Source: Deltaproteobacteria bacterium
GTDB taxonomy: Bacteria; Desulfobacterota; Desulfarculia; JACQYL01
NCBI GenBank assembly: GCA_016208165.1
Contig: JACQYL010000064.1
Span: 1-38,548 of the forward strand
Direction: 5' to 3'
DNA: 38,548 bases
Position numbers and translations under genes: made by a program. Below, one piece after another: positions 2,125 to 38,154 of the stretch. Each line of letters opens with the position of its first letter. Position 1 is the first letter of the stretch. Under the pieces are notes generated by a model. That model was not told the origin of the DNA, did not search any database, and saw nothing but the letters and a program-made list of their open reading frames with translations.

Positions 2125-5100
2125 TCATTCCCCGGCTAGATATGGGGCGGAAAACCACTGGTGGAGAACATGGTTCTTCTCGCCCTCGGGCGTGGTCTTC
2201 AGTCCGCCGTTGGCCCGGGTGTCCGTCTCAAACCGGCAGGCAAATCGGGCGCTTCCGGCCATGGAATTTACGTCGATTCCATCCGTCTTGTCCGGATCCA
2301 GGAACACCATAAACGTGCGGGCATCCGGACTGGCAATAACGATCATGGATGCTTCGTAAGTCTGCACGAAGAAGCTCATGGTTTCGGCCCCTCCCGGCAG
2401 TTCATCCTTCCAGATGCCCGGGCAGGCGTCTTCCGGAGCAGCCGGGAACCATCGATGCAATGGGTATTCCACGGTCCAGCCGGTGGGCAGCGTCATCACC
2501 GCGGTTCCCTCGTCCGCGGTCGAGAAGCTCGCAGTCAAGTGGTAGCCCAGGCCTCCCAGATCGCCGATATCCAACCCGTCCGAGAAGTCATCGTCCAGGA
2601 AAGCGTAGGCGTTCATTCCGTCCGCAGATGCGATAACCAGCATGGATCCGGTCGAATAGGTCTGAACGTAGAAACTCATGACGGCAGCGGCGTTCTCGAA
2701 GGGCGCGTCCTTCCAGATGCCGTCGGGTAAAGAGGCGACCGAGTCCGTCACATGGATTTGCGCGCGGTCCGGCACGCTCGCCACCTTCCCGTCGTGAACT
2801 ATGAGTTCGACGAGATAGTCGCCCTCCAGGTCCGCTAGAAAGGCCGTTTGAACGTTCTGGGGAGCGGATAACTGCGTAAGGGCCCCTGCAGGGCTGCTGA
2901 CCACCGACCACTGGTAGGACAGGGCGTCGCCATTGGCATCCAGGGAGCCGCCGGCGTCTAATGATACGGCTGCACCGGGAGCGGCCAGACGATCCGGGCC
3001 CGCATCCGCGATGGGCTGAACGTTCAGTTGTTTCACGATCTTGATCGATATGGCGTCGGTTCCCGTTCTGCCGTTGCCGTCCGTTCCAACGAGGGTGATT
3101 TCGTGCGTTCCTTCGGATAGCGACGAGGTGTCGAGCCTTCTTCCCGATCCGAGCAAATCGTCCTTGTGGGAATACCAGGAATGGCTTTCTTCCGGCAAAG
3201 GTCCGTCTTCCAGGTCCGTCCCCGTTCCTTCGAATATCACGACTTCCCCGTACGAAAACGTGGGAATCCCAGATTCCCCATTGGGACATACAAGGGCCAC
3301 CATGGGGGGCTTGTTTTCAACGCTGAACACGGGCGATTCCGCGACGGCCGTGTTCATACCGTCCGTTGCGAGCACGCGGAATCGCGCGGCGTCGCTTCCG
3401 GCCAGCACGGAGGCGTCCACTTCGATGGAGGAAGCCGGCCAATCGGAAACCAGCGTACTCCAGGTGTTCCCTCCATCCGTGGAATATTGAACGAGATGAT
3501 ACAGTGTATCTCCGGCGTCGGGATCGAAGGACTCCCAAATCAGGTTGTGTACCTCGATGCTTCCCCAGGTATCCCCCGCGTCAATGGAAGTAATCGTCGC
3601 GGTCGGAGTGTTGGCGGTGCGATATCTTACTAGGAGTACCGTTTGCTCCTGTTTGAGTACGACTCGAGAGATCCTCTCGTCGAATGGAAGCACTTCAAAA
3701 AACCGTACGGGCGGAGTGAATGCGGGGTCTGGAGGGTCCACCTCCACGAACTGCGGATCGAAGGAGTGGGAGAGCAGAACCAGGCCGTCCGAGTCCTGGA
3801 ACTCCAACAGGTAGGCTCCTACGGAAGGCGCTGTGGAGCCCGCGTTTCCACCCAGTTGGTAAAACGGGAGGAAGTCCGCGCTGCGAACCGTTCCGTTTTC
3901 CGGCAGCAGGGCGCCGCTTACCCAGAGCACTTCTTCCGGACCTTCGTCGGTTGGTGCGCCGGTCCACGCACTGCTGGAACCCAGGGCGTCGTGGAGTGTA
4001 TCGAACAGGTGCTCGTAGGTATAGGGCGAAATCCAGAGGGGTTCACCGCCGTAGGACATCAGGTCGTGAGCGTGACCTGCCGAAGGGGGACTTCCGGGGT
4101 CGATGACTTCCAACTCGTACGTGTCGAATCCATACGTGCAAATGCCGCCGTGCGTACATGGAAAGACGGCCGGAGCCGCCTCGCACCCGCCTTCCCCGTG
4201 GTCACAGCTTGCGTGGGGGCGTCCAAGGGAATGTCCGATCTCGTGGGCGGCGATAGCCAGGTCATCGCCCAGAAGGCTCGTGGTGTCCAGTTTGCCTACG
4301 GCCACGTTCCGATTACCCAGACCCAGGTAAAGGGTGACCGGTGGGGGCACGATACCGAAATAGACCAGATTGATGGGATTATCCTCGCGCTTTTTGCCGG
4401 TGGCCGCATCCAGCAACGCTCCCACCTGGTTGTGCCAGGCGGACATGCGAGTGCTGGTCATGGCGGCGTCGGGATGGCTGAAATCCCCGTCGATGGGGAC
4501 CCACTGCGGTGAATGAATGGAGATATCGATGTCCTTCAGGGAGACCGGATAGGTCTTGACGAACCGATGCGTGGTTTTCTCGAATACATCCTGGTAAATC
4601 GCAGGGGGCGCGTAGTCGCAATTGGATACGGTGTCTTTGGGATCCCTCCTCACGCAGGCCCAGACCAGATGCAGATCCAGGGGCGCCGTGGCCTGGAAAT
4701 CTATGCTGCTGATCTCCAGACCGTTGGCCCCGTCATCACATCCCGTGCATTCATGCACGCCGAGAGGAGCGTTCACGGTGACCCTCAGGTTGACGGACTT
4801 GTTCTGCTCCGTCCACGCCTGGGGAAGGGTGAAATTCCACGACTTGTCGGCGCTTCCGCGAAAGGTGTTGATAGTGTTGTTGTCCCCCGGATCCACCGTG
4901 ATGGCGGATTTGGGAAGAAGGGACTTGGGGCCGGTGCAGGGATTGCCCGAAGAATCCGTGCACGAAAGGGTCGCCGTGCATCCTTGCAGCACGACGTTCG
5001 TGCCTTCGATGCCCGGATAGACCCGGACCACCGTTCGCTTGCCCGCCACAAACGGGACGGAATTGGTACTGACAGCGTTCTGGGGAACAAAATTCAGTCG

Positions 5101-6210
5101 ACTCGTGTTGGACTCAGCCACCCAGGGCTGCGTCGCCTGCGTGATCTCCATGCCTTTGGCCCACAGATTGAAATTCGGACCGGGCGGTGTGTAGTTGATC
5201 GTCCGGTTTGCCTGCCCCGTATGGTCCGCGAAATCCCAGGCTTTGACTCGGATCTTCCGGGTCCCTTGGGCCAGAAAGGTCTGGAAATGATAGCTTGCCT
5301 GGGTAGGCGTCACATCGTACAGGCAGGTGGGCGCACCGGGCCCTCCACACACATAGAACGATTCCAGTTCGGTATCGGATGCGTCCAGGAAGGAGACCTG
5401 AATTTTCGCCACGCCGCTTTCGTTGTCTGTTGCCGAAAAAGCGAGGTCCGCCTGTGGGACGTACGTCACGGACCCGTCCGTGGCCGGCGTTATGATCTGC
5501 ACCGACGGGGAAGTGGTGTCCGGAGCGCAGGCCGGGCCTATGGCGGTGAAGGTCAGGTCGTCGATCGCTTCGTGGGCCGCATTACCCATTGAGGGCCCCG
5601 TGAACTCGATCTCGACGCTGCGGATATCTCCAGCGGAGGAGGACACGCTCAAGCTCTTGTCTATCGACGATGGGCCGTTACCGATATAAGCCGTGCCGTA
5701 GTCGATGTATCCTGAACCCGGCGTCTCGGTGCTGTAGGCGTGAATCGCAGCGGTAACGGGGAAACCATAACTCTGGTTCAACCCTACCTTCACGCTGACG
5801 GAGGATTGGCCTGTGGTAAAGCTGATCTGCAGGGTATCGTATTCTTCGAACTCGCCGCCGGGGAACTGGTTGGTCAAGGCGTGGGTGGGGCTGGACGTTT
5901 GAACCGAGGGCACGAAAATCCGTCCCGCTTTCAGGAATGTCACCCCCCGGTTGATGGAGGGATTGATACAGTACTGGCTGGTTACATTGTCCGGCTGGGG
6001 AACGCTCTCTTCGAAATCGATGTTTTGGGCCGCTACGAACGGTGCGTTCAGGCAAAGTAGAACGAGTGCGCAGAGTATTCCGAGGCAAAAAGTGAAAGGG
6101 GAGTGTATGGCGTCTTGCGGTTTGGGTATTGGATCTCGACCGGGGTTGCTTTGCCGTACGTACGAGTGCCCAGAGCAACAAAGGTTTCGGGTTTTTCCGC
6201 CTATATCCAC
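2125..6210 (-). CDS. Large secreted metzincin-type metalloprotease with Ig/PKD-like modules and a duplicated C-terminal domain
   Basis: The 1361-residue product has an export signal at about residues 39-61 (hydrophobic core, cleavage after FVAA), preceded by an unusually long 38-residue N-region; no closer in-frame start is visible. A predicted jelly-roll/Ig-like region follows. The active site is HEIGHSLGRPH at residues 656-666, the HExxHxxGxxH zinc motif of metzincins, with a matching Met-turn DLMSYGG (Met718). Cysteines between them (CDHGEGGC, CTHGGIC) suggest a disulphide-stabilised insert. PKD-like beta-sandwich modules follow at about 860-1155 (PIADAGPDRLAAPGA is typical). Two copies of an approximately 95-residue module, each starting GIWKD and carrying MSFYVQTY or MSFFVQTY, end the protein. 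It would be secreted or surface-attached, cleaving proteins or peptides; the substrate is unknown. It is apparently monocistronic. Confidence 0.85.
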   Translation of the reverse strand: MDIGGKTRNLCCSGHSYVRQSNPGRDPIPKPQDAIHSPFTFCLGILCALVLLCLNAPFVAAQNIDFEESVPQPDNVTSQYCINPSINRGVTFLKAGRIFVPSVQTSSPTHALTNQFPGGEFEEYDTLQISFTTGQSSVSVKVGLNQSYGFPVTAAIHAYSTETPGSGYIDYGTAYIGNGPSSIDKSLSVSSSAGDIRSVEIEFTGPSMGNAAHEAIDDLTFTAIGPACAPDTTSPSVQIITPATDGSVTYVPQADLAFSATDNESGVAKIQVSFLDASDTELESFYVCGGPGAPTCLYDVTPTQASYHFQTFLAQGTRKIRVKAWDFADHTGQANRTINYTPPGPNFNLWAKGMEITQATQPWVAESNTSRLNFVPQNAVSTNSVPFVAGKRTVVRVYPGIEGTNVVLQGCTATLSCTDSSGNPCTGPKSLLPKSAITVDPGDNNTINTFRGSADKSWNFTLPQAWTEQNKSVNLRVTVNAPLGVHECTGCDDGANGLEISSIDFQATAPLDLHLVWACVRRDPKDTVSNCDYAPPAIYQDVFEKTTHRFVKTYPVSLKDIDISIHSPQWVPIDGDFSHPDAAMTSTRMSAWHNQVGALLDAATGKKREDNPINLVYFGIVPPPVTLYLGLGNRNVAVGKLDTTSLLGDDLAIAAHEIGHSLGRPHASCDHGEGGCEAAPAVFPCTHGGICTYGFDTYELEVIDPGSPPSAGHAHDLMSYGGEPLWISPYTYEHLFDTLHDALGSSSAWTGAPTDEGPEEVLWVSGALLPENGTVRSADFLPFYQLGGNAGSTAPSVGAYLLEFQDSDGLVLLSHSFDPQFVEVDPPDPAFTPPVRFFEVLPFDERISRVVLKQEQTVLLVRYRTANTPTATITSIDAGDTWGSIEVHNLIWESFDPDAGDTLYHLVQYSTDGGNTWSTLVSDWPASSIEVDASVLAGSDAARFRVLATDGMNTAVAESPVFSVENKPPMVALVCPNGESGIPTFSYGEVVIFEGTGTDLEDGPLPEESHSWYSHKDDLLGSGRRLDTSSLSEGTHEITLVGTDGNGRTGTDAISIKIVKQLNVQPIADAGPDRLAAPGAAVSLDAGGSLDANGDALSYQWSVVSSPAGALTQLSAPQNVQTAFLADLEGDYLVELIVHDGKVASVPDRAQIHVTDSVASLPDGIWKDAPFENAAAVMSFYVQTYSTGSMLVIASADGMNAYAFLDDDFSDGLDIGDLGGLGYHLTASFSTADEGTAVMTLPTGWTVEYPLHRWFPAAPEDACPGIWKDELPGGAETMSFFVQTYEASMIVIASPDARTFMVFLDPDKTDGIDVNSMAGSARFACRFETDTRANGGLKTTPEGEKNHVLHQWFSAPYLAGE

Positions 6211-6722: not shown

Positions 6723-7166
6723 GGGACCCCTCGGGTTTCGATTTGACGCCCGGCGTCTTCCCGTACGAATGTGCCGCGCGGGGCCTCCTCTGCAAGGGGC
6801 ATGTTCTTGCCGGAGGCGGCCTGACTTGTTATGAGAATGAGCCCTCCCATTCCCCCGTGCACTATACTCGATTTTTTCCGAAGTGGGAAAGAAGAAGAGT
6901 TATCGGGACGTCAAACACTACAAGCGCCGGTAACGATGGTTGACTTAGCCCCGAAACCCTAGCATCATATTTGTCGAGAAGAGTTTTTTTTCAGGCGCAC
7001 CCCTACCACGATCCAGTGACGAGGACCCGAGGTTTGGGGAGAAAACCGGGATTCGAACCAGCCCTCGAAGACGGACGGTTTCCCGGAACCGCCGTCGCGC
7101 TCCTTTGTCAGGCAAACCGGCGGATTGGAAGGGACCGACTGTTTTCTTTGCTCCAGGCGGCAAATC
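6723..7166. other. Gap upstream of the sigma-54 activator
   Basis: No credible gene is seen. The frame of the activator is open back to a TTG at 7125, but that start has no supporting ribosome site and would add 14 unrelated residues. I found no sigma-54 or clear sigma-70 promoter here. Confidence 0.4.
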
Positions 7167-9056
7167 ATGAGGGACGAACGGAAGACCCAAAAGGAACTGC
7201 TGGAAGAACTGGGCCGCGTACAGCGCGATCTGACGCATCTGAGGAAAGCGGAAGCCGAGCGCAAGGAGGTGGAGCAGGCGCTAAAACGGCGGACGCACGA
7301 ACTGGGCGAAAGGGTCAAGGAACTGAACTGCCTTTACGGGATTGCCCGGCTCGTGGAGCGTCCCGGAGTCTTGTTAGAGGAGGTGCTTGGAGGGGTTGTG
7401 AACCTGATTCCCCCTTCCTGGCAGTTCCCGGAGATCACCTGCGCCCGGATCGTTGTCCTGGGTGAGGAGTACAAGACGGCCAACTTCAGGGAAACCGGAT
7501 GGAAGCAGGCGGCGACCATCGTTGCGGACGGCCGGCCGACCGGGTCGCTTGAAGTGTTTTACCTCGAGGAGAGGCCGGAGAGCGACGAGGGGCCCTTTCT
7601 CAAAGAAGAACGAAAACTGATCGACGCCATCGCCGGACGTCTGGGTAAGATTGTCGAACGAAAACGGACCGAAGCCGATCTCAGGGAAAGCATCGAACTG
7701 TACCGTATCCTGTCCAAACACGTGGCGGACGGAGTCACACTTTTCCAGGAAGGGCGCTTTCTGTTTGTCAATCCGGCTTTCCTTTGGATGTTCGGTTTGA
7801 AAAAGGACGACGAGCCGGTCGGCAGGACGGCTGCGGAAGTGTTTGCAGGAGACGGTTACCAACGTATCCTGGAGGCGTATTCCTCCGCGGATCCGAAGAG
7901 TCTCCCGGGGGAGTCTTTCCGGGCGCTGTGCACAGGAGAGAACGGACGGGAATTCTGGGTGGAGATTTTTCACAATGCCATAGCTTGGAAAGGGAGCCCC
8001 GCCATTCTCTCGACTCTACGTGACGTGACCGAAAGGAAGCTTCGGGAGATCGCCATCCAGGAAGAAGCGGAGCATCTCAGAAAGGAGAACATCCGCCTCA
8101 GGTCTTCCATGCGGGAGCGTTACCGATTCGGAAGCATTATCGGAAGAAGCGCCGCCATGCAGGAGGTGTACACGCTCATATTGAGGGCCTCCGAGACGGA
8201 CGCAAACGTTGTCCTTTACGGGGAATCGGGAACCGGCAAGGAACTGGTCGCACGCACGATTCATGACATGAGCGAACGCAGAGATCGGCCTTTTGTACCC
8301 GTGAACTGCGGCGCGATCCCCGAAACGCTCTTTGAAAGCGAGTTTTTTGGACATAAGAAAGGGGCGTTCACGGGTGCTCATTCGAACAAACGCGGTTTTT
8401 TCGATCTGGCGGACGGCGGCAGCCTGTTTCTGGACGAGGTCAGCGAGTTCACGATCGGTATGCAGGTAAAGCTGCTACGTGCGATCGAGGGATCGGGCTA
8501 CATGCCGGTGGGAGGCGATCGAATCCGGCGCGCCGATGTACGCATTATTGCGGCGTCCAATGTTTCCCTCCTGGATCGGGTTAGAAAAGGACAGATGCGG
8601 GAGGATTTTTTCTATCGGTTACACGTGATCTCCATCCAGGTCCCCCCACTCCGCGAAAGGAAGGAAGACATTCCGTTGCTGGTGGAAAACGTGCTGCAGG
8701 GTTACGGCAAGGACAAAGGGTCCAAAGTGCCCGGGAATGTGATGGAGGCCCTGATGAGCTATCCGTGGCCTGGAAACGTCAGAGAGCTTCAGAACGTGGT
8801 GCATAGGTATTTGACGGTGCATAAGCTGGATTTTGTCGGGAGTTTGATGGATGGGCCTTCGGCCTGGGGGGATACGGCGGTGGGGGAGGCCGGGGGCGAG
8901 GGACTGAATCTGCGCGAGAGCTTGGAGCGTTTCGAGAGAGAAGTCATTGCCGCGGCCCTGGATCAGACACGTTGGCATCGGGGCCATGCGGCGTCTCTGT
9001 TGGGCATTGACCGGAAGACGCTATTCCGCAAGATGAAGCAATTCGGTATGGCGTAG
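7167..9056 (+). CDS. Sigma-54-dependent activator with coiled coil, GAF-like, PAS, AAA+ and Fis domains
   Basis: A 629-residue cytoplasmic enhancer-binding protein. I chose ATG 7167 (MRDERKTQKEL) over TTG 7125. Residues 1-45 form a charged coiled coil; about 45-165 look GAF-like; about 175-290 form a PAS sensor domain (LFQEGRFLFVNPAF, ending LRDVTERK). A linker coiled coil leads to the AAA+ core: Walker A GESGTGKE from residue 352, the sigma-54 contact loop GAFTGA at 399-404, Walker B SLFLDE with Asp423-Glu424, and the second-half motif FYRLHVISI. The C-terminus is a Fis-type helix-turn-helix (AASLLGIDRKTLFRKMKQFG). No receiver domain is present, so the signal is probably a small molecule or redox state sensed by PAS/GAF. 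The sigma-54 promoter 180 bp downstream is the obvious target. Confidence 0.93.
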   Translation: MRDERKTQKELLEELGRVQRDLTHLRKAEAERKEVEQALKRRTHELGERVKELNCLYGIARLVERPGVLLEEVLGGVVNLIPPSWQFPEITCARIVVLGEEYKTANFRETGWKQAATIVADGRPTGSLEVFYLEERPESDEGPFLKEERKLIDAIAGRLGKIVERKRTEADLRESIELYRILSKHVADGVTLFQEGRFLFVNPAFLWMFGLKKDDEPVGRTAAEVFAGDGYQRILEAYSSADPKSLPGESFRALCTGENGREFWVEIFHNAIAWKGSPAILSTLRDVTERKLREIAIQEEAEHLRKENIRLRSSMRERYRFGSIIGRSAAMQEVYTLILRASETDANVVLYGESGTGKELVARTIHDMSERRDRPFVPVNCGAIPETLFESEFFGHKKGAFTGAHSNKRGFFDLADGGSLFLDEVSEFTIGMQVKLLRAIEGSGYMPVGGDRIRRADVRIIAASNVSLLDRVRKGQMREDFFYRLHVISIQVPPLRERKEDIPLLVENVLQGYGKDKGSKVPGNVMEALMSYPWPGNVRELQNVVHRYLTVHKLDFVGSLMDGPSAWGDTAVGEAGGEGLNLRESLERFEREVIAAALDQTRWHRGHAASLLGIDRKTLFRKMKQFGMA

Positions 9057-9064
9057 TCCCATAA

Positions 9065-9152
9065 TAGGGCAGTATTGACCTATTCGGAATTGCGTAGTTT
9101 TTACAATAGGTAATCTTAACATCGTAGTTTCTTCTGGGGCATTTATGCCCTA
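9065..9152. promoter_or_regulatory. Candidate upstream activator sites for the sigma-54 promoter
   Basis: TAGGGCA (9065-9071) and its inverse TGCCCTA (9146-9152) lie 86-173 bp upstream of the -24 element. The second site is part of the 14-bp palindrome GGGCATTTATGCCC (9137-9150). AATAGG/CCTATT also occur as an inverted pair at 9063-9084, and again near 9104. Enhancer sites for Fis-type activators are normally palindromes in this distance range. The pairing is seen; the binding role is inferred. Confidence 0.5.
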
Positions 9153-9237
9153 ATACGGCCCCTCCCACCAGCCAAATCATCCGGCATTTTTCAAAAAGAC
9201 CCAAACATATCGACTCGTTACATAACGGCAATCTTTC

Positions 9238-9253
9238 TGGCATGCCATTTGCT
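9238..9253 (+). promoter_or_regulatory. Sigma-54 (-24/-12) promoter
   Basis: TGGCATGCCATTTGCT matches the consensus TGGCAC-N5-TTGCW with a single change and correct GG-to-GC spacing. It lies between the activator gene and a 42-codon open frame with an excellent ribosome site about 80 bases downstream, so it would drive that gene under control of the neighbouring activator. Confidence 0.82.
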
Positions 9254-9333
9254 TCATACATTAGCACGGACGAGTGTATGCGTAAGTCCCGTTTCAAAGC
9301 AAAAAAGGCATTCTCACATAAAGGAGGTATCTT

Positions 9334-9462
9334 ATGAGCGGCTATGGAGAACTGATCTTCATAAGTTGTTGTTTTTGGCTGCCGTATGCCGTCTATTTCG
9401 GCGTCATGCTGGCGCGAAAAAGGAGAATCCAAGCCCACGAACCTGCTCCTGCAATGGCCTAG
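9334..9462 (+). CDS. 42-residue single-span membrane protein under sigma-54 control
   Basis: ATG at 9334 is preceded by a near-perfect ribosome site (AAGGAGG, 6-7 bases upstream) and followed by 42 codons to TAG at 9460. The product starts MSGYGELIFISCC, has one hydrophobic span of about 20 residues (about 7-27, with FWLPYAVYFGVML), then a positive cluster ARKRR and a short Ala/Pro-rich tail. The charge pattern predicts N-out/C-in. It resembles in size the small accessory subunits of transporters, but I do not recognise the family and no transporter follows it. Function unknown. The promoter, ribosome site and codon pattern together make it a real gene in my judgement. Confidence 0.75.
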   Translation: MSGYGELIFISCCFWLPYAVYFGVMLARKRRIQAHEPAPAMA

Positions 9463-9833
9463 AGCCATTCGTTGTCAGCGAGGCTTGTCACCGAAGCATT
9501 ATTGTTTGTTTCCCTTCGTGACCTTCCATCGGCGTCCGTCAACATAGATGCGTTTCGCCGGAAGGCTATCCGATTATCTACGATCGTGTGAACAGCGTTA
9601 CATAAATTCCGGCAATGTAGTACCGTCCGGAACTTCCCTCGATCGCGTTTTCGGCAGGCTATTGGAGGTCAGCTCGAAAAGGGCTCAAGAACCTCGATGC
9701 AACAACCGATGGATGTTGATGGGGAGTGATCTCCTTTGAAGTAAGCGAATGAATAGCCGGCCGTTGCACCCGGGTGCGGATCAGCGCCGGCAAAAACCTG
9801 TCGGATGAGCATGAGAAGGGGTGTCTACCATCC
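9463..9833. other. Gap between the small membrane protein and the beta-helix gene
   Basis: Open frames here are short and without ribosome sites. No terminator-like hairpin with a T-run was found after the small gene, so read-through into the beta-helix gene from the sigma-54 promoter is possible. Confidence 0.35.
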
Positions 9834-11309
9834 ATGATAAACGGAACGGGCGGCCGGATTCGGCGAACTCATCAGTGGAGAATAGGTGCGTGGACGTTCT
9901 TCTTGTCTGTTCTACTGTTTTCATCCGAGTGCCCTTGGGCCGCGGTTTACGAAGTGGGGCCGGGAAAGGAATATGAAACTATCGGGTCCGTACCCTGGGA
10001 AGCCCTGAACGCCGGGGATACGGTTCGGATCCATTGGAAGAGTGAACCTTACCGGGAGAAATGGGTCATCTGCCGGGTGGGAACCGACCAGCAGCCCATC
10101 GTAGTCACCGGAATACCCGATCCGGAGGGCCGACGGCCGGTCATCGACGGTGAAGATGCAACTACGCGAGAGCAGCTCGACTTCTGGAACGAGGATCGGG
10201 GCGTTATCAAGATCGGCGGGGCCAATTCACCTGCCGATACCATGCCCGCACACATCCGCATCGAGAACCTGGAAATACGCGGGGGCAGGCCGCCGCATAC
10301 CTTTACCGGGAGGTACGGCATTACAGAATACAGAGACAATTGTGCGGCCGTGTACATGGAAAAAGGTCAACACATCACCATAAGGAACTGTATTCTCCAT
10401 GACTGCGGGAACGGCGTTTTCGGAAGTTCCGGGGTAAAGGATCTGCTGCTGGAATTCTGTCATATCTACGATAACGGGATCGAAGGGAGCATTTACCATC
10501 ACAACAACTACACGGAGTGCGACGGCATTGTCTTCCAGTTCAACCGATTCGGGCCGCTCCGGCCCGAATGCGGCGGCAATAATCTGAAGGACCGGTCCGC
10601 GGGCACGGTCATACGGTATAACTGGATCGAAGGCGGCAACCGGCAGCTTGACCTTGTGGACAGCGATCACGAGTTCCTTTACACGCTGCCCTACTACCGG
10701 TCCACCTATGTCTACGGCAATGTTCTGGTGGAACCGGAGGATGAAGGAAACAGCCAGATCTGCCATTACGGCGGTGATTCGGGGGACACGGATCAGTATC
10801 GGAAGGGCGCCCTGTACTTCTACAACAATACGGTGGTTTCAACAAGATCCGGCAATACCACCCTGTTCCGGCTGTCCACGAACGACGAATCAGCCGATTG
10901 CCGGAACAACATCTGCTTGGTGACCGCGGCGGGCGGTAGACTGGCCATGACGGCCGGGGCGGGGGTGTTGGACCTGAGAAACAACTGGTTCAAAAGCGAT
11001 TGGGTGGAGACGCACGACACATTGACCGGCATCATTAACGACTATGGTCAGATCGAAGGTCAGGATCCGGGATTCGTCGATCATACGGCTCAGGATTTTC
11101 GACTGACATCCGCTTCCGACTGCTTGAACCGTGGAATCGCCTGTGCCGGCGCCGTGCTGCCGGAGCACGCCGTTCTATGGCAGTACGGGAAACATCAAAG
11201 TCGGGAACACCGTCCCAAGGATGCCGTACCGGACCTGGGCGCCTTCGAACGCCCCGCCATGGTGATTCCGCCCTTTTTCATGCTCCTGACGGCGCCGCCC
11301 CAACCCTGA
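9834..11309 (+). CDS. Secreted right-handed beta-helix (pectate-lyase-like) protein
   Basis: I prefer ATG 9834 (491 residues) to GTG 9774 because it places an ordinary signal peptide near the start: basic N-region with RTHQWR, core TFFLSVLLF, cleavage near PWAA. The mature part begins VYEVGPGKEYETIGSVPW, the usual opening of parallel beta-helix proteins whose coils repeat N-x-I/V patterns; clear coils include IRIENLEIRGG, ITIRNCILHDC and LLLEFCHIYDNG. These folds occur in polysaccharide lyases, hydrolases and epimerases. No catalytic residue set can be assigned, so the substrate is open. A C-terminal segment PDLGAFERP is typical of the family. It would act in the periplasm or outside the cell. 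Confidence 0.8.
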   Translation: MINGTGGRIRRTHQWRIGAWTFFLSVLLFSSECPWAAVYEVGPGKEYETIGSVPWEALNAGDTVRIHWKSEPYREKWVICRVGTDQQPIVVTGIPDPEGRRPVIDGEDATTREQLDFWNEDRGVIKIGGANSPADTMPAHIRIENLEIRGGRPPHTFTGRYGITEYRDNCAAVYMEKGQHITIRNCILHDCGNGVFGSSGVKDLLLEFCHIYDNGIEGSIYHHNNYTECDGIVFQFNRFGPLRPECGGNNLKDRSAGTVIRYNWIEGGNRQLDLVDSDHEFLYTLPYYRSTYVYGNVLVEPEDEGNSQICHYGGDSGDTDQYRKGALYFYNNTVVSTRSGNTTLFRLSTNDESADCRNNICLVTAAGGRLAMTAGAGVLDLRNNWFKSDWVETHDTLTGIINDYGQIEGQDPGFVDHTAQDFRLTSASDCLNRGIACAGAVLPEHAVLWQYGKHQSREHRPKDAVPDLGAFERPAMVIPPFFMLLTAPPQP

Positions 11310-16420: not shown

Positions 16421-17758
16421 ATGAAACGTCAAATCGGTCTTTCGGGGGCGGCGGCCCTCATTGTGGGCAACATGATCGGAGTGGGGATTTTCACCACTGT
16501 GGGTTTCATGGCCGCCCACATCGGAAATCCACTCTGGATGATAGGTCTCTGGTTCGGCGGGGGCCTGATGACCATGGTGGCCGCCTGGTGCTATGGAGTT
16601 CTGGGCGCAGCGTACCCCGAAGCCGGCGGGGACTATGTCTTTCTGAGGGAGGGTCTGGGAGAATGGGCTGCGTTTGTCGCCGGGTGGGTGCTCGTCTGCG
16701 TCATTCTACCGAGTTCGATAGCAGCTCTCTCGTCCGCATTGGCCGACGGCCTGTCACGAGTTGCGGGAGTATCGTCATGGTCGATGGAGGCGCTTGCCGT
16801 CCGGCTGTCTCCAAAGTGGGCGGCTGCGGGGTTGATCGTCGGCGTGCACCTGGTTTCCGCTGCGCATCTTCGATGGACGCTGGGAGTGCAAAAGCTGACT
16901 ACCGCTCTGTTGATCCTGGTGGTGGCGAGCCTATTGTTTCTGGGTTTCGGCTGGGGGGACGGCCATTGGGGCTATCTGGCCGTCGGGGGATCTTTTCCCG
17001 GCTTTCAGGCCCTTGGGGTTGCAGCCGTGGGCATCATCTTTTCCTACAGCGGATTTTTCCAGGTGGTTTATCTGGGCGGCGAAGTGAGGGATCCGACCAG
17101 GATTATCCCGAAGTCCATCCTGCTGTCCGTGACGATCGTGACCGCGGTGTATACGGCTCTCGTTGCACTGTATCTGTTTTCCGCACCGATCGAACTGCTG
17201 GCCGGCCGGATCGATGTCGGTCAGTTGGCCGCTAAAAGGCTTCTTGGGGCGAAAGGAGGGCTGTTTATCGAGGCGGGTATCCTGTTGGCCATTGCGGGCT
17301 CGCTGAACGCAACGGTCCCCGCGGGGCCTAGGATTGCGTACGCCATGTCGGCTGACCGCTGCTTTCCCAAGCCATTCGGTGTGCTATGGAGTCCCACCGG
17401 CATGCCGATGCTGGGGCTCGCCCTGCAGGCGGCACTCTCTCTGGCGTACCTGCTGCTTGGCGCCTTCGACGAGATCCTTTCCTGTACAACCATCGCCATG
17501 GTGCTGTCTTCCATGGGGGTGGGCATCAGCCTTTTGCGGCTTCGAAGAAGTATAGCCCGGCGCAGGCACTCGAGTGAATGGAGAATCATCCTTCCTGCGA
17601 CGGTTTTCGTGGTATGTTACGTCGCCACGGGGTTTTCCATCGCCTATGGATATCCCGAAGAAACGGCGCTTGGTTTGGGTATCGCCGCTGCGGCCGTACC
17701 TCTGTATGTGCTGAAGAAACGGCTCCTCAAAATTCCACCTGCTCATTCCTGCGGGTAG
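16421..17758 (+). CDS. APC-superfamily amino acid/amine permease
   Basis: The 445-residue product has about 12 hydrophobic spans. The opening IGLSGAAALIVGNMIGVGIF is the hallmark first helix of amino acid-polyamine-organocation transporters, with the unwound substrate-binding stretch GNMIGVGIF. A sixth-helix pattern (IIFSYSGFFQVVYLGGEV) fits the conserved binding region as well. It would exchange or import an amino acid, amine or related cation across the inner membrane. Its position after the synthase and carrier genes suggests it moves a precursor or product of that set, or a product of the divergent amidohydrolase; the substrate cannot be read from sequence. Confidence 0.88.
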   Translation: MKRQIGLSGAAALIVGNMIGVGIFTTVGFMAAHIGNPLWMIGLWFGGGLMTMVAAWCYGVLGAAYPEAGGDYVFLREGLGEWAAFVAGWVLVCVILPSSIAALSSALADGLSRVAGVSSWSMEALAVRLSPKWAAAGLIVGVHLVSAAHLRWTLGVQKLTTALLILVVASLLFLGFGWGDGHWGYLAVGGSFPGFQALGVAAVGIIFSYSGFFQVVYLGGEVRDPTRIIPKSILLSVTIVTAVYTALVALYLFSAPIELLAGRIDVGQLAAKRLLGAKGGLFIEAGILLAIAGSLNATVPAGPRIAYAMSADRCFPKPFGVLWSPTGMPMLGLALQAALSLAYLLLGAFDEILSCTTIAMVLSSMGVGISLLRLRRSIARRRHSSEWRIILPATVFVVCYVATGFSIAYGYPEETALGLGIAAAAVPLYVLKKRLLKIPPAHSCG

Positions 17759-31196: not shown

Positions 31197-31302
31197 CGGG
31201 AGGTAGCGAACGAATTGAATGGCGACCCAAATGGTTTTCCATCCTAAATTCACCATCACCAACCGCATGACCCGTGCAATTACCCGCATCGAGCGGGCGC
31301 GT
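31197..31302. repeat. Left copy of a perfect 106-bp direct repeat
   Basis: Identical base for base to 36868-36973 (offset 5,671). It contains the end of the hsdM reading frame ([15 protein letters not shown], stop) and the first 28 codons of fic. Upstream of it a frame with [14 protein letters not shown] runs into the same hsdM-like end, so the left flank is a foreign or rearranged end. Confidence 0.97.
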
Positions 31303-32268
31303 GGTTTTCTGGAAGCGGCGCAGCTTTCCGCCGACTGGGTGCGCGAGGTGGGCGAACAGGCGTTGATTCTGGAGGCGCACCACACCACCCACATCGAGGG
31401 CACCCGGCTGACGCTGGACCAGGCCGAGCGGCTCTGGAAGGGCGAAGCGGTGCCCGAGGCCGACCCGGACGATGCCCGGGAACTGCTCAACTACCGCACC
31501 GCCTTCGAGTTCGTCTCCGAGTGCCTGGACAGCGGCGACCCGATCACCGAGGGGATGATCCGAGAGATCCACCGCAAGCTGGTGGAGGGCGTGCGCGGCG
31601 GCAGCGCCGCGCCGGGTGAGTACCGGCGCGTTCAGAACTATGTGGTCAACTCCGGCACTGGCCAGGTGATCTACACCCCGCCCACTGCGGTGGAGGTGCC
31701 GGTGATGATGTCGGAGCTGGTGAAGTGGCTGAACGGTGACCTCGATATCCACCCGGCGCTGGTGAGCGGCATCGCCCAGTTTCAGCTGGTGCACATCCAC
31801 CCGTTTCTGGACGGCAACGGCCGCACCTCGCGCCTGCTCTCCACCCTCTGCCTGTACAAGGCCGGGTACGATTTCAAGCGGCTCTTCACCATCAGCGAAT
31901 ACTACGACCGTGACCGCCCGACCTTCTACAAGTCGATCCAGAGCGTGCGCGACCATGGCATGGACATGACCGGCTGGCTCGACTACTTCGTCACCGGTCT
32001 GGAAACCCAAATGGTCGAGGTGCGCGAACGCAGCGAGCAGGTCATCCGCCGCGACGTGCTGGTGAAGCAGCACGGCCTGAACGAGCGCCAGGCGAAGGCG
32101 TTGGGATTATTGATGCGGAAAAATTCGGTGCATATCTCCGAGATTGAACAGCTCTGTCCCGGAGTTTCCCGACGCACGCTGCAACGGGACATGACCGGCC
32201 TGATCGAACTCAATCTTGCCCGCATCACGGGCTCTGCCCGCCAATCCAACTATGAACTCGTCAAATAG
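31219..32268 (+). CDS. Fic-family protein with N-terminal autoinhibitory helix
   Basis: The 349-residue protein has the Fic catalytic motif [12 protein letters not shown] with His194, needed to transfer AMP (or a related group) to a target hydroxyl. An inhibitory helix motif (S/T-x3-E-G/N) is at Thr56-Glu60-Gly61 in TTHIEGT, so it is a self-restrained (class II) Fic. The flap strand QVIYTPP precedes the active site. The C-terminus carries a winged-helix region ([30 protein letters not shown]), suggesting autoregulation or DNA binding. Its start codon overlaps an hsdM-like 3' end, exactly as the right-hand fragment overlaps the intact hsdM, so its native place is probably behind hsdM. Confidence 0.93.
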
Positions 32269-32287
32269 AATCGCGACATATCGCGCC

Positions 32288-32337
32288 AAAGTATTGCGAC
32301 AAATCACGACAAGTATCGCGACAGCGAGCTGTGACAG
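32288..32337. repeat. GCGACA-rich dispersed repeat after fic
   Basis: AAAGTATTGCGACAAATC (32288-32305) and CGACAGCGAGCTGTGACAG (32319-32337) recur, in opposite order, at 37079-37096 and 37032-37050. A further GCGACAA tract is at 38160-38200. All three lie beside Fic-family genes. The units are 7-9 bases long and only partly regular. Confidence 0.75.
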
Positions 32338-32443
32338 ATCTATGACGAAAGCTGTGACATCTTGGGGGCTGACTTGAGGGGTGAGTCGGGGGCTGCGGCG
32401 TTTGGGGCGGCCGGCGACGACACGGACGATCTGATGGCGGAGT

Positions 32444-34444
32444 ATGGATTTGCCGAAGAGCGACCAAGGGGTGAATGAGCAAGATGAACTGCGGCGACTG
32501 CGCGAGGAAAACGCGCGTCTCAAGGCTCTGCTGACCCGGCACGGCATTCCTTGGAAAGAACTGACCTCTCTTGAACCCGTTCCCTCAACGCCGGAACCCG
32601 CTCCGGTCCCATCCCATTTCAGCACCGACGACAAAATCGCCCTGTTCCGTTGTTTGTTCAAAGCGCGCGAGGATGTCTATCCCAAGCGCTGGGAGTCGAG
32701 CAAAGGCATGTCCGGTTACTCACCGGCCTGCGGCAACGAGTGGAAACCCGGTGTCTGCCACAAACCCCGAATCAAGTGCGGCGACTGCAACCAGCGCCGG
32801 TTGCTGCCGGTTACCGATCAGGTGATCTATGACCATTTGGCCGGGAAACAGACCATCGGCGTCTATCCGCTCCTGAGCGATGACAGCTGCTATTTTCTGG
32901 CGGCCGATTTCGACGAGGCTGACTGGCGGGAAGATGCCAAGGCCTTCATGCAATCCTGCCGGGAGCTTGGTATTTCGGCGGCGCTGGAGATTTCCTGCTC
33001 CGGCAACGGCGCACACGCCTGGATCTTCTTTGCCGAACCGGTTCCGGCCCGCGAGGCCCGGCAGCTCGGGGCCGCGCTGATCAGTCATACCTGCGACCGC
33101 ACCCGGCAATTGTCCCTGGTCAGCTACGACCGCCTGTTTCCCAATCAGGACACAATGCCCAAGGGCGGCTTCGGCAACTTGATCGCGCTACCCTTGCAGA
33201 AACAGCCGAGAGAATTGGGTCGCAGTGTGTTCGTCGATGAACAGCTACAACCCTATCCCGATCAGTGGTCCTTTCTGGCATCCATCCAGCCGTTGTCCCG
33301 ACGGGACCTGGAAGACGCCATCCTGCGGGCCAGCGGCGGTGGTCATCCTCTGGACGTGGCCTTTGTGACCCAGGAAGAGGACAGTAAACCTTGGCAGCGT
33401 TCTTCCCTTGTACCAGCCCGGATAGCTGGCCCTCTGCCGGAAGCGCTGACCCTGGTGTTGGCCAACCAGATTTTCATCGCCAAGGCTGATCTGCCGCAGC
33501 CGCTGGCCAACCGCCTGATCCGGCTCGCCGCCTTTCAGAACCCGGAATTCTACAAGGCCCAGGCTATGCGCCTGCCGGTCTGGAACAAGCCGCGCATCAT
33601 CGGCTGTGCAGACAACTATCCCCAGCACATCGGCCTGCCGCGTGGCTGCCTCGATGCGGTGCACGACCTGTTACAGGAAAACGACATCCGTCCGGAGCTA
33701 CAGGATGAGCGCCTGCCGGGAAGGAAGGTAGCTGTCAAGTTTACCGGCACCTTGCGCAAAGATCAAAAGACGGCGGTGCGGGAGATGCTCAAGAACGATG
33801 TTGGCGTGCTCTGCGCCCCGACGGCCTTCGGCAAGACTGTCACCGCCGCCGCCCTGATCGTCCGGCGTAAGGTGAGCACGCTGGTGCTGGTGCACCGCAC
33901 CGAACTGCTGCGTCAGTGGCAGGAGCGGCTGACCGGATTCCTGGAAACTCCGAAAGGCGGGCTGGGTGTCATCGGCGGCGGCAAGAAGAAGCCTTCCGGC
34001 AAGATCGACATCGCCGTCATGCAGTCGCTCTCTCGCCGGGAGGATTTGGGTGAACTGCTGGACCACTACGGGCAGATCATCGTCGATGAGTGCCATCACC
34101 TGTCGGCCTTTTCCTTCGAGGCGATCCTCAAGCAGGCAAAGGCGAAATTTGTGGTTGGTCTGACGGCCACGCCGATACGACGGGACGGTCATCAGCCGAT
34201 CATCTTCATGCAGTGCGGACCGATCCGCCACAGTGCCGCGAGACCCGATACCGCCCCGGCTCAACTGGAGGTCTGGCCCAAAGTGCTGCCCGCGCCGGAG
34301 ATTCCGCTGGATTCACCGATTCAGGATGTGTTCCGCATCCTTTCCAACGATGCCAACCGTAACCGGCGCATCGCCGAGGATGTGCTGGCCGCCTATCGGG
34401 AAGGGCGCAAGGTGCTGATGTTGACCGAGCGGACGGACCATTAG
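32444..34444 (+). CDS. TOTE-type primase-helicase, cut by an in-frame amber codon
   Basis: A 666-residue protein with an N-terminal coiled coil (LRRLREENARLKALL), a zinc-binding Cys cluster (CGNEW...CHKPRIKCGDC), and an archaeo-eukaryotic primase domain as found in TOTE conflict systems: catalytic Asp155 and Asp157 in LAADFDEADW, His191 in SGNGAHAW, then LFPNQDTMPKGGFGNLIALP. The helicase follows: Walker A APTAFGKT (Lys464), DECHH at 548-552, GLTATPIRRDG. The frame hits TAG at 34442 just inside the second RecA domain (VLMLTERTDH), where relatives have a hydrophobic residue; the downstream frame is open and continues the domain. The simplest reading is a nonsense change from TTG. The protein would be truncated unless suppressed. 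Confidence 0.85.
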   Translation: MDLPKSDQGVNEQDELRRLREENARLKALLTRHGIPWKELTSLEPVPSTPEPAPVPSHFSTDDKIALFRCLFKAREDVYPKRWESSKGMSGYSPACGNEWKPGVCHKPRIKCGDCNQRRLLPVTDQVIYDHLAGKQTIGVYPLLSDDSCYFLAADFDEADWREDAKAFMQSCRELGISAALEISCSGNGAHAWIFFAEPVPAREARQLGAALISHTCDRTRQLSLVSYDRLFPNQDTMPKGGFGNLIALPLQKQPRELGRSVFVDEQLQPYPDQWSFLASIQPLSRRDLEDAILRASGGGHPLDVAFVTQEEDSKPWQRSSLVPARIAGPLPEALTLVLANQIFIAKADLPQPLANRLIRLAAFQNPEFYKAQAMRLPVWNKPRIIGCADNYPQHIGLPRGCLDAVHDLLQENDIRPELQDERLPGRKVAVKFTGTLRKDQKTAVREMLKNDVGVLCAPTAFGKTVTAAALIVRRKVSTLVLVHRTELLRQWQERLTGFLETPKGGLGVIGGGKKKPSGKIDIAVMQSLSRREDLGELLDHYGQIIVDECHHLSAFSFEAILKQAKAKFVVGLTATPIRRDGHQPIIFMQCGPIRHSAARPDTAPAQLEVWPKVLPAPEIPLDSPIQDVFRILSNDANRNRRIAEDVLAAYREGRKVLMLTERTDH

Positions 34445-34450
34445 CCGCTC

Positions 34451-35422
34451 TTGCGGGAGGCGCTGGGGGATGAGATGGAACACTGCTTTGTCGTGCACGG
34501 CCGTTTGTCAAAGAAACAGCGAACGGCGGTGTTTGCCGCACTGGATGCGTTGGACGAATCCGCTCCGAGGGTTATACTCGCCACCGGCCGCCTGATCGGC
34601 GAGGGTTTTGACCATCCACCATTGGACACGCTGGTACTGGGCATGCCGATTTCCTGGAAAGGGACCTTGCAGCAGTATGCAAAAGCGCTTATCGATGGCA
34701 ACGCCATCTGGACGGAGCTTAAGGCGGATTTGGAACTCCTGTCGTTCGGCAAGTGCTGGTATTCCGAGGCACGGGAAAAAGTCTCCCATTATCATGTTGA
34801 CCATTTTCGTCCCAAGAAACAATGCATGGATGCGAATGGTTCCATAACATGCGGTTATTGGTGGCTGGCCTATGATTGGAAAAATTACCGCGTCAGTGGC
34901 AGCGTGATCAATACGGCCAAGCGCGATAAATTTGCTGTTTACAGAAACAGAGCCGAAGGCCCGGATACGCCCATTGAAGATGAGCTGATCTATCTGCTGG
35001 ATCCGCTCAACAGGGATGACGTGTGTTTGTTGACATTTAACAACAACGGCGAAGCCATGCCCTTGAACCCGGATGAAGATGCATGGGATCACAAGCGGGC
35101 TATGTACACGATCGACGTATTGGATCTGAACAATGCAAAACTGCGTCGAGCCAGAAAAATCAAATGGAAGGAAATATCGCAGGCGATAGACACCATCAAC
35201 GCGTACCAAAAGCAGTATAACGAACAGCCTTCCGTCAGACTTCAAACACAGCTGCATGAATTCAAAAAACGCACCCGGGAACTGATATCTCCGACAAGTG
35301 AGCTTTCGTGTACCTATCGCGCCTGTCTGAGGGCCAGTCGAGAGGATTGGGCCATTGATATTTTGCAAACCCATTTCAATATCGAGCAACTGCAACAAGA
35401 ATACAGGGAGAGCATGGGATGA
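34451..35422 (+). CDS. Helicase C-terminal remnant fused in frame to an HNH endonuclease
   Basis: Same frame as the gene before the amber codon. Residues 1-75 continue the second RecA domain (ATGRLIGEGFDHPPLDTLVLGMP, ISWKGTLQQYA). In intact helicases the next residues are like GRLHR (motif VI); here, at about base 34680, the sequence jumps to KALIDGNAIWTELKADLELLSFGKCWYSEA, the start region of an HNH nuclease with VSHYHVDHFRPK and GYWWLAYDWKNYR. The His-Val-Asp-His motif is present; of the usual zinc Cys pairs only one Cys (KCW) is seen. The HNH stop overlaps the hsdM start (ATGA). A deletion seems to have removed the helicase end and the HNH start, perhaps with genes between. Translation would need read-through or the TTG at 34451. 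Confidence 0.8.
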   Translation: MREALGDEMEHCFVVHGRLSKKQRTAVFAALDALDESAPRVILATGRLIGEGFDHPPLDTLVLGMPISWKGTLQQYAKALIDGNAIWTELKADLELLSFGKCWYSEAREKVSHYHVDHFRPKKQCMDANGSITCGYWWLAYDWKNYRVSGSVINTAKRDKFAVYRNRAEGPDTPIEDELIYLLDPLNRDDVCLLTFNNNGEAMPLNPDEDAWDHKRAMYTIDVLDLNNAKLRRARKIKWKEISQAIDTINAYQKQYNEQPSVRLQTQLHEFKKRTRELISPTSELSCTYRACLRASREDWAIDILQTHFNIEQLQQEYRESMG

Positions 35423-36918
35423 ACACGGCCAACATTGTCCAGAAGATATGGAGTTACTGCGATGTGCTGCGCGATGTGGGCGTGAGCTACGGCGATTATC
35501 TGGAGCAGCTCACCTACCTGCTGTTCCTCAAAATGGCCGACGAATATGCCAAACCGCCGCATAAACGGGATATCGGCATTCCAAAGGAATACACCTGGCC
35601 TGAGCTGAAAAAGCGGCGCGGCGCGGCGCTTGAAACCTTCTATGTCAAGCTGCTGGGTGAACTCGGCCGGCAAAAGGGTATGCTGGGCCAGGTGTTCACC
35701 AAGTCGCAGAACAAGATCCAGGACCCGGCCATGCTCTATCGCGTCATCGACATGATCGACAAAGAGCAGTGGACCCTCATGGGCACGGATGTCAAGGGTG
35801 ATATTTATGAGGGACTTCTGGCGAAAAACGCCGAGGACGTTAAATCTGGGGCCGGTCAATATTTCACGCCCCGGCCGCTGATCCGGACCATTGTCGAGTG
35901 CGTGCGGCCCGAGACCGAGAAAACCATTGCAGACCCGGCCTGCGGCACAGGCGGCTTTTTCCTAGGCGCCTATGAGTTCATTTCCAAAGACTGGGAATTG
36001 AACAAGGCGCAAAAGGCGTTTCTAAAATTTAAGACCTTTTACGGCAACGAATACGTCGCCAATACCCGCCGCCTGGCCTTGATGAACATGCTCCTGCATG
36101 GAATCGGCGATATGGACGCCGAACCTTCCATCGAACCGACCGATGCCCTGATCGCTCCGCCGAAACAAACTTTTGACTATGTGCTGACCAACCCGCCGTT
36201 TGGCAAAAAAAGCGCCATCACCATAACCAATGGAGAAGGCAAGGCGGAAAGGGAAGATTTCACTTACAACCGTCAGGATTTTTGGGTGACGACCTCCAAC
36301 AAACAACTCAATTTCGTCCAGCATGTGCGCGCCATGCTGAAAACCACGGGCAAGGCGGCGATTGTGGTGCCGGACAATGTGCTCTTTGAAGGCGGCGCCG
36401 GTGAAACTGTGCGCCGCAAGTTCTTCGAGACCACCGATCTGCACACGGTTCTGCGCCTGCCCACAGGCATTTTTTATGCGCATGGGGTCAAGGCCAATGT
36501 GCTTTTTTTCGATAACCGCCCGGCCGCGAAAGCGCCGCAAACCAAAGACGTCTGGTTCTATGACTACCGCACCAACATCCACCATACGTTAAAGAAGAAG
36601 TCGCTTCGCTTTGAGGATCTGCAGGAATTCGTCGCGCTGTACAATCCGGAAAACCGCCACATGCGCAAGGAAACCTGGCATCCGGAAATTAACCCCGAGG
36701 GCCGGTGGCGTAAGTTTCATTACAAGGATATCACCGATCGCGACAAGGCCAGCCTTGACATATCATGGCTGAAGGACGCCAATCTGACCGATTTGGACAA
36801 TCTGCCGGACCCGGAAGTGCTGGCGGAAGAAATCGTCGAAACCATAGAGGCGGCGTTGGCCAGTTTCCGGGAGGTAGCGAACGAATTGAATGGCGACCCA
36901 AATGGTTTTCCATCCTAA
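35419..36918 (+). CDS. hsdM: Type I restriction-modification methyltransferase subunit HsdM
   Basis: A complete 499-residue N6-adenine methyltransferase. The N-terminal helical domain begins IVQKIWSYCDVLRDVGVSYGDYLEQLTYLLFLKM; the AdoMet motif is DPACGTGGF at residues 172-180, and the catalytic motif IV is NPPFG at 258-262. The C-terminal segment PDPEVLAEEIVETIEAALASF is typical. With an HsdS subunit it would methylate adenine at a bipartite site. Neither hsdS nor hsdR is in the window; a fic fragment follows directly, sharing the last 29 bases of the frame. It starts within the HNH stop (ATGA). Confidence 0.95.
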   Translation: MNTANIVQKIWSYCDVLRDVGVSYGDYLEQLTYLLFLKMADEYAKPPHKRDIGIPKEYTWPELKKRRGAALETFYVKLLGELGRQKGMLGQVFTKSQNKIQDPAMLYRVIDMIDKEQWTLMGTDVKGDIYEGLLAKNAEDVKSGAGQYFTPRPLIRTIVECVRPETEKTIADPACGTGGFFLGAYEFISKDWELNKAQKAFLKFKTFYGNEYVANTRRLALMNMLLHGIGDMDAEPSIEPTDALIAPPKQTFDYVLTNPPFGKKSAITITNGEGKAEREDFTYNRQDFWVTTSNKQLNFVQHVRAMLKTTGKAAIVVPDNVLFEGGAGETVRRKFFETTDLHTVLRLPTGIFYAHGVKANVLFFDNRPAAKAPQTKDVWFYDYRTNIHHTLKKKSLRFEDLQEFVALYNPENRHMRKETWHPEINPEGRWRKFHYKDITDRDKASLDISWLKDANLTDLDNLPDPEVLAEEIVETIEAALASFREVANELNGDPNGFPS

Positions 36919-36973
36919 ATTCACCATCACCAACCGCATGACCCGTGCAATTACCCGCATCGAGCGGGCGCGT
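36868..36973. repeat. Right copy of the 106-bp direct repeat
   Basis: Identical to 31197-31302. Sequence to its left is continuous with hsdM; sequence to its right (TCCGCTTGG...) has no relation to fic. This side therefore preserves the native left flank of the hsdM-fic junction. Confidence 0.97.
36890..36973 (+). pseudogene. First 28 codons of a second fic copy
   Basis: ATG 36890 opens [19 protein letters not shown], identical to the Fic protein at 31219, then diverges after RIERAR at 36973 into unrelated sequence (SAWHRFG...). No Fic motif follows in frame, so it is a truncated copy. The frame stays open to 37141. Confidence 0.9.
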
Positions 36974-37031
36974 TCCGCTTGGCATCGTTTTGGAATTCAC
37001 CACTTTTGCGACAACTTCGCGACACGGTTTA

Positions 37032-37096
37032 CGACAGCGAGCTGTGACAGAGCTATAACAGGAGCTGTGACAGCCCGAAAAGTATTGCGACAAATC
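37032..37096. repeat. Second copy of the GCGACA-rich dispersed repeat
   Basis: Shares two blocks of 18-19 identical bases with 32288-32337, in swapped order, within a tract of GCGACA/GTGACAG units between the fic fragment and the second Fic gene. Confidence 0.75.
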
Positions 37097-37137
37097 GCGA
37101 CACGGATCGCGCAATTTCAAACAGTCAGGGAGGCAAC

Positions 37138-38154
37138 ATGAAATATCAACCGCCCTACACCATCACGCCGGCGATTGTGAATCTGGTTGCCGAGATCGGC
37201 GAAACGATCGGCCGCTACACTGTGCTGGCCGAACAGAACCTGACCCCGCGCCTGCGCCGGGAGAACCGCATCCGTACCATCCAGGCCTCGCTGGCCATTG
37301 AGAACAACACGCTCACCCTTGAACAGGTGACCGCCGTTATCGAGGGCAAGCGGGTGTTGGGGCACCCCCGCGAGATTCAGGAAGTGCGTAACGCCTTTGC
37401 AACCTACGAAGCCATGGAAGACTGGGACGCCAGTGCCGAGGAAGACCTGCTGGCGGCTCACGAGTTGCTGATGCGCGGGCTGGTGGATGAAACGGGTCGA
37501 TATCGATCCGGCGGGGTTGGCATCTTTCGGGGAGAGCAGCTGGTGCACATGGCTCCTCCTGCTGATCGCGTGCCCAAACTGATCGCGGATCTGCTTGATT
37601 GGCTTGCAACGACTCCCGAGCATCCGTTGGTGGCCAGTTGCGTCTTTCATTACGAGTTCGAATTTATCCACCCCTTTGCCGACGGCAACGGGCGGATGGG
37701 ACGGTTGTGGCAAACCCTGATTCTCCGGAACTGGAAGCCGCTGTTGGCTTACCTGCCGGTGGAGACAGTGATCCGCGAGCGGCAGGAGGACTATTACCGC
37801 GTGCTGGCGGTGGCTGACCAGCAGGCAGACGCCACTCCGTTTATCGAATTCATGCTGAGCGCGTTGCGCGATGCCGTCCGCGAGGCTGTGGCGACCGACC
37901 AAGTAGGCGATCAAGTAACCGACCAAGTAGCGGCATTGATCCGTGTGATTGGGACCGCCGAGCTGGGCAGCAACGACTTGATGCGGGCTTTGGGTTTATC
38001 ACACCGTCCCACGTTCCGGAATAATTACCTCAACCCGGCGCTGGAAGACGAATGGATCGAGCGCACGCAACCCGATTCCCCGCGCAGCCCGACTCAGCGC
38101 TATCGATTGACCGGCAAAGGTCAGCGTTGGTTGCTACAACATGCCGACGGGTAG
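37138..38154 (+). CDS. Second Fic-family protein, unrelated subgroup
   Basis: The 338-residue protein has an ideal ribosome site (GGGAGG, 5-6 bases before ATG). The Fic motif is HPFADGNGRMGR with His178; the inhibitory helix motif is Ser51-Glu55-Asn56 in SLAIENN, so it too is self-restrained. The flap is RGEQLVHMAPP. The C-terminus has a repeated D-Q-V linker (DQVGDQVTDQV) leading to a winged-helix-like domain (LGLSHRPTFRNNYLNPALEDEWIERT), as in many Fic proteins with DNA-binding tails. It differs from the 31219 protein throughout, so the two are not a recent duplication. Confidence 0.93.
   Translation: MKYQPPYTITPAIVNLVAEIGETIGRYTVLAEQNLTPRLRRENRIRTIQASLAIENNTLTLEQVTAVIEGKRVLGHPREIQEVRNAFATYEAMEDWDASAEEDLLAAHELLMRGLVDETGRYRSGGVGIFRGEQLVHMAPPADRVPKLIADLLDWLATTPEHPLVASCVFHYEFEFIHPFADGNGRMGRLWQTLILRNWKPLLAYLPVETVIRERQEDYYRVLAVADQQADATPFIEFMLSALRDAVREAVATDQVGDQVTDQVAALIRVIGTAELGSNDLMRALGLSHRPTFRNNYLNPALEDEWIERTQPDSPRSPTQRYRLTGKGQRWLLQHADG

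Follow-up and report, generated by a model that had tools for sequence, protein, structure and literature searches.

A predicted sigma-54 switch of near-constant geometry ahead of an orphan 42-codon frame in a Desulfarculia genome

In Desulfovibrio vulgaris, activators lie beside the sigma-54 promoter that they control, with binding sites mostly within 100 nt of the promoter (Kazakov et al. 2015, PMC4641369). The unit described here belongs to this known kind, in which an activator is co-localized with its own sigma-54 promoter. As in the single-component sigma-54 activators of D. vulgaris (PMC4641369), a PAS-type sensor, an AAA+ domain with GAFTGA and a Fis-type helix-turn-helix (HTH) are combined in one protein. 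Palindromic upstream activating sites (UAS) no more than about 100 bp from a -24/-12 promoter, the place beside the regulator gene and the small regulon are likewise shared with the D. vulgaris units.

On the other hand, the present activator differs from those units (PMC4641369) in that it lies upstream of the promoter and codirectional with it, the promoter being at a near-fixed distance from the stop codon of the activator gene. The predicted output differs as well, as an orphan membrane protein of 42 aa takes the place of an enzyme, a transporter or an RNA. The near-constant geometry and the orphan microprotein output may be new; neither was found described in a short literature search.

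The locus was analysed within a window of 38,548 nucleotides, which is the whole stretch of DNA under study, and has the following features.

7125-9056, + strand: sigma-54 enhancer-binding protein (the activator), 643 aa, TTG start at 7125 with ATG 7167 as the alternative
9063-9084, + strand: UAS 1, AATAGGGCAGTATTGACCTATT, an inverted repeat centred at +17 from the activator stop
9136-9150, + strand: UAS 2, GGGGCATTTATGCCC, a palindrome centred at +87 from the activator stop
9238-9253, + strand: predicted sigma-54 -24/-12 element, TGGCATGCCATTTGCT, at +181 from the activator stop
9321-9327, + strand: Shine-Dalgarno sequence AAGGAGG
9334-9462, + strand: putative orphan gene of a 42-aa one-span membrane microprotein, from ATG 9334 to TAG 9460-9462
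9834-11309, + strand: secreted-looking right-handed beta-helix protein, a possible second gene of the transcript, with a weak ribosome site

The activator matches Sigma54_activat (PF00158, 3.3e-63), HTH_8 (PF02954, 2.1e-14) and PAS (PF13426, 1e-9) in Pfam. Its translation carries the GAFTGA motif of an AAA+ domain that interacts with sigma-54, and the Fis-type HTH occupies residues 599-640 (PF02954) for DNA binding at the C-terminus. The original prediction had named a PAS/GAF activator; the PAS part stands, and Pfam detects no GAF domain.

The element TGGCATGCCATTTGCT is of the TGGCAC-N5-TTGC type with the conserved GG and GC, and deviates once from the -24/-12 consensus, having CATG where CACG is expected. 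In the window, TGGCAYGNNNNTTGC has its exact match only at its own site, and the pattern with one mismatch allowed is found twice against 1.25 expected, so a pattern match within the window is by itself poor proof of a promoter. Over the whole 5.7-Mb genome, TGGCAYGNNNNTTGCW has 18 matches versus 3 for the reversed control, and many of the 18 sit before genes that sigma-54 could plausibly control, among them a type IV pilin, response regulators and other full-size genes. Just 5′ of the element, at 9218, TTACATAA is followed by CGGCAAT, and this stretch is repeated 380 bp downstream, at 9598, with four bases inserted.

Relatives of the activator are 45-56% identical to it over about 450-470 residues. 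With the PAS-linker region as the query, relatives were also collected from 84,980 species genomes. When 75 loci were scanned for a downstream sigma-54 site with up to two mismatches allowed, 54 had one, whereas the reversed pattern gave 3 of 75, the loci being related rather than independent. The sites are at 150-240 bp after the activator stop in 49 of the 54, and the mode (nine loci) is exactly +181, the spacing of the window. Because the site recurs in this way and its spacing is shared, the promoter is well supported. Thus a sigma-54 promoter at 9238-9253 can be predicted on solid grounds, as can its assignment to the neighbouring activator gene.

Both palindromes fall in the interval from the activator stop (9056) to the promoter, outside the 9238-9462 segment to which the original prediction had been assigned. 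Each beats about 97-98% of shuffles at its position. With the threshold set at the level passed by 5% of shuffles, 30 of 52 loci have a palindrome above it near +17 and 19 of 52 near +87, the window being counted among the 52. An activator-promoter unit with palindromes in between is therefore conserved across relatives.

UAS 1 and UAS 2 share the motif RGGGCA-N4-TGMCCTA, whose exact matches in the 5.7-Mb genome are these two only. None of its one-mismatch matches elsewhere in the genome has a sigma-54 site 60-250 bp downstream. With no other exact UAS and no sigma-54 site after the one-mismatch copies, further targets of the activator in the genome were rejected. Because the UAS pair is unique, the activator looks dedicated to the 9238-9253 promoter as a one-promoter regulon, the motif itself being derived from two sites only.

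The original prediction is thereby upheld in three elements: a sigma-54 promoter, enhancer sites that are palindromic, and the neighbouring gene as the activator. They are borne out by the element in place, its genome-wide excess over the reversed control, the same arrangement and palindrome spacing behind related activators, and the uniqueness of the UAS motif.

The product of the 42-codon frame is MSGYGELIFISCCFWLPYAVYFGVMLARKRRIQAHEPAPAMA, with a hydropathy of 1.88 in its best 19-residue stretch, and RKRR after the span suggests an N-out, C-in topology. The codon score of the frame (+4.3 bits) is the highest among the six frames yet modest, within the lowest 11% of the genome's gene segments, and its GC3 is 0.55 versus 0.68 for the window genes. 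When stretches of 400 bp were simulated with a first-order Markov model based on the intergenic region, 2 of 4000 trials gave a frame of at least 35 codons from ATG with a properly spaced AGGAGG, and none of the 4000 gave one that encoded a membrane span as well. The frame thus exceeds chance in ribosome site, codon bias and composition, the codon bias modestly so.

The original prediction proposed a search for homologues of the 42-aa protein, and about 830 genomes of the phylum yielded none; the search covered its own genome, 63 genomes of the class, 395 of the phylum and 389 of the Desulfatibacillum class. Its own genome apart, these share the class at closest, not the order, a depth at which genes that are young or evolve fast would escape detection. 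Matches to plasmids, PDB and PHROGs are at chance level only, and there is no match in NCBIfam at E values up to 10 or in Pfam at E values up to 1. The best weak matches (L003, L009, L184 and L185) were rejected on reading, as no matching small genes are there. No conservation of the frame was found in the relatives searched. Of the original claim, the ribosome site and the one-span protein are both in the sequence, and the status as a gene comes from the above statistics with no homologue to add. We conclude that the frame is probably a real gene, though an orphan.

KdpF, AcrZ, MgtS and DUF4212-like proteins are small, have one span each and serve transporters or respiratory enzymes as accessory proteins. 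The 42-aa protein resembles them in having a short single span followed by positive charges. Unlike them, it has no similarity in Pfam, NCBIfam or PDB and no adjacent partner gene.

The original prediction implied that activator, promoter and 42-aa membrane protein travel together as a conserved dedicated module, with the small protein serving as a transporter partner. Activator and promoter do travel together. Moreover, at L159, a cassette that is weakly related has behind it a membrane protein of 83 aa that by eye resembles the small subunit of a symporter, and next comes an SSS-type symporter-like gene. However, the 42-aa protein matches no curated transporter small-subunit family and has no homologue in any search, and every relative has a different gene in its place. 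Of the transporters recognized in the window, the closest is an APC permease (16421-17758), at a distance of 7 kb and lacking a preceding sigma-54 site, in agreement with the original remark that no partner transporter is adjacent. At the search depth used, the conserved module is refuted, and we regard the transporter-partner reading as very improbable.

More weight, though still short of likely, goes to the reading that the main product of the transcript is the secreted beta-helix protein (9834-11309), whose match to Pfam Beta_helix (1.7e-5) is just short of the curated cut-off, with the 42-codon frame as a leader peptide or a minor first gene. Between 9462 and 9834, neither a terminator nor a sigma-70 promoter is predicted on the + strand, and the genes or operons that the cassette drives in relatives are of full size. 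At L045, a further perfect sigma-54 site of the genome lies ahead of another beta-helix protein. Nevertheless, a gap of 371 nt leads to a poor ribosome site at 9834, while the near-perfect one belongs to the 42-codon frame, and the two beta-helix proteins have no significant similarity, for which their kinship was rejected. Production of a regulatory RNA, with the frame incidental or dual-function, is a less likely output and appears improbable. Sigma-54 activators do drive non-coding RNAs in D. vulgaris (PMC4641369), and the frame lacks homologues. But Rfam gives only a chance-level snoRNA match, the folds are no better than those of shuffles (z of -0.09 for 9264-9462 and -0.24 for 9463-9833), no terminator was found, and the ribosome site and the span are beyond chance.

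What follows the switch in relatives was identified by eye from translations, and includes receiver proteins, methylmalonyl-CoA mutase (B12-dependent), a MeaB-type GTPase, TRAP transporter/receptor, CoA transferases and oxidoreductases. Cassettes of the nearest activators (L092/L094, L096/L142 and L105), about 43-66% identical in the matched PAS-linker, place the sigma-54 site between +181 and +216 relative to the stop. Unlike the window, they lead by lineage to a receiver protein with Tmc-like genes (L092/L094), a B12-dependent mutase (L096/L142) and a TRAP transporter (L105). The genes after the receiver protein in L092 presumably are similar to those of the Tmc complex.

In a tree of the activators, most target-gene types fall into clades of their own. 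The smallest fork of the window activator is with L103, L106 and L110 (support 89/96), a placement that is not firm, and no similar small gene was found at these three loci. The tree leaves out twelve loci by a motif filter, namely most of one subgroup and L114. Incidentally, the related activator L089 (G029:C2) has an in-frame TAG at the start of its AAA+ domain, and is possibly a decaying copy.

No relative has a microprotein at the matching place, and a different gene is behind the promoter in every relative whose downstream gene is readable. The recurrence of the activator-promoter-small-gene order, which had been put forward as a check, thus fails. This outcome, which the original prediction had itself named as refuting, counts against a conserved three-part module and leaves the local link in this genome untouched. 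The complete minimal regulon of the original prediction is plausible for this genome, though the beta-helix gene at 9834 may be co-transcribed.

Our preferred reading, which we consider probable, is a self-contained sigma-54 switch composed of a PAS-AAA+-Fis activator, a UAS pair and a promoter for a 42-aa inner-membrane protein, inherited as a cassette whose output differs by lineage. The geometry, its recurrence, the coding signals and the fact that the UAS pair is unique can be read off the sequences themselves; the working of the switch would be as follows. The activator (7125-9056) would sense a signal through its N-terminal domains and bind the two palindromic enhancer sites that immediately follow its own gene, centred at +17 and +87. 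ATP hydrolysis by the activator would then open sigma-54 RNA polymerase at 9238-9253, and the transcript would start about 12 bp downstream of the element, near 9264. Translation from AAGGAGG and ATG 9334 would yield the 42-residue single-span inner-membrane protein, which as a working guess could be a small membrane modulator of some partner. The switch would be inherited with nearly fixed geometry while the gene behind it varies among activator lineages, the orphan microprotein being that of the window's lineage.

More tentatively, and with somewhat less than even confidence, we conceive that this activator lineage carries the enhancer pair and the promoter as a fixed-geometry cassette that swaps outputs, and that here a newly arisen 42-residue membrane protein has become the sole output of a dedicated sensor.

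A signal-sensing activator would be tied to one promoter by unusually constant geometry across Desulfobacterota. This may offer a rule, applicable from sequence alone, for assigning targets to many unassigned activators, which is to look 150-240 bp past the stop codon. Also flagged is a microprotein below the default length limit of gene callers. It is likely to be all that a dedicated regulator controls, and would be a good entry point for functional work.

Several other observations were made along the way. In a subgroup of ten loci (L116, L118, L119, L129, L130, L132, L135, L136, L108 and L111), the sigma-54 site is at +151 to +198, and a conserved protein of ~130-150 aa with the start motif DPFGxLxxWGxVL is behind the cassette. 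In the window's own genome, L045 (C120:4239-4254) has its perfect sigma-54 consensus 274 bp before the beta-helix protein, beside a WecG-like gene, and may be of the PEP-CTERM-box type. Another locus there, L040 (C90:2960-2975), has TGGCACGAAGTTTGCT, a perfect sigma-54 consensus, and after it a one-span frame of 23 aa, MDEIIIWLLILVSLVLINSKKRT, which weakly matches a Heimdall-CTERM-like anchor profile.

Elsewhere in the window, 2125-6210 on the - strand encodes a secreted-looking protein of 1361 aa with PKD domains and a zinc-protease-like motif, HEIGHSLGRPH. A defence-island-like cluster at 31219-38154 contains a TOTE-type primase-helicase (32444-34444), an HsdM methylase (35419-36918) and two Fic proteins (31219-32268 and 37138-38154).
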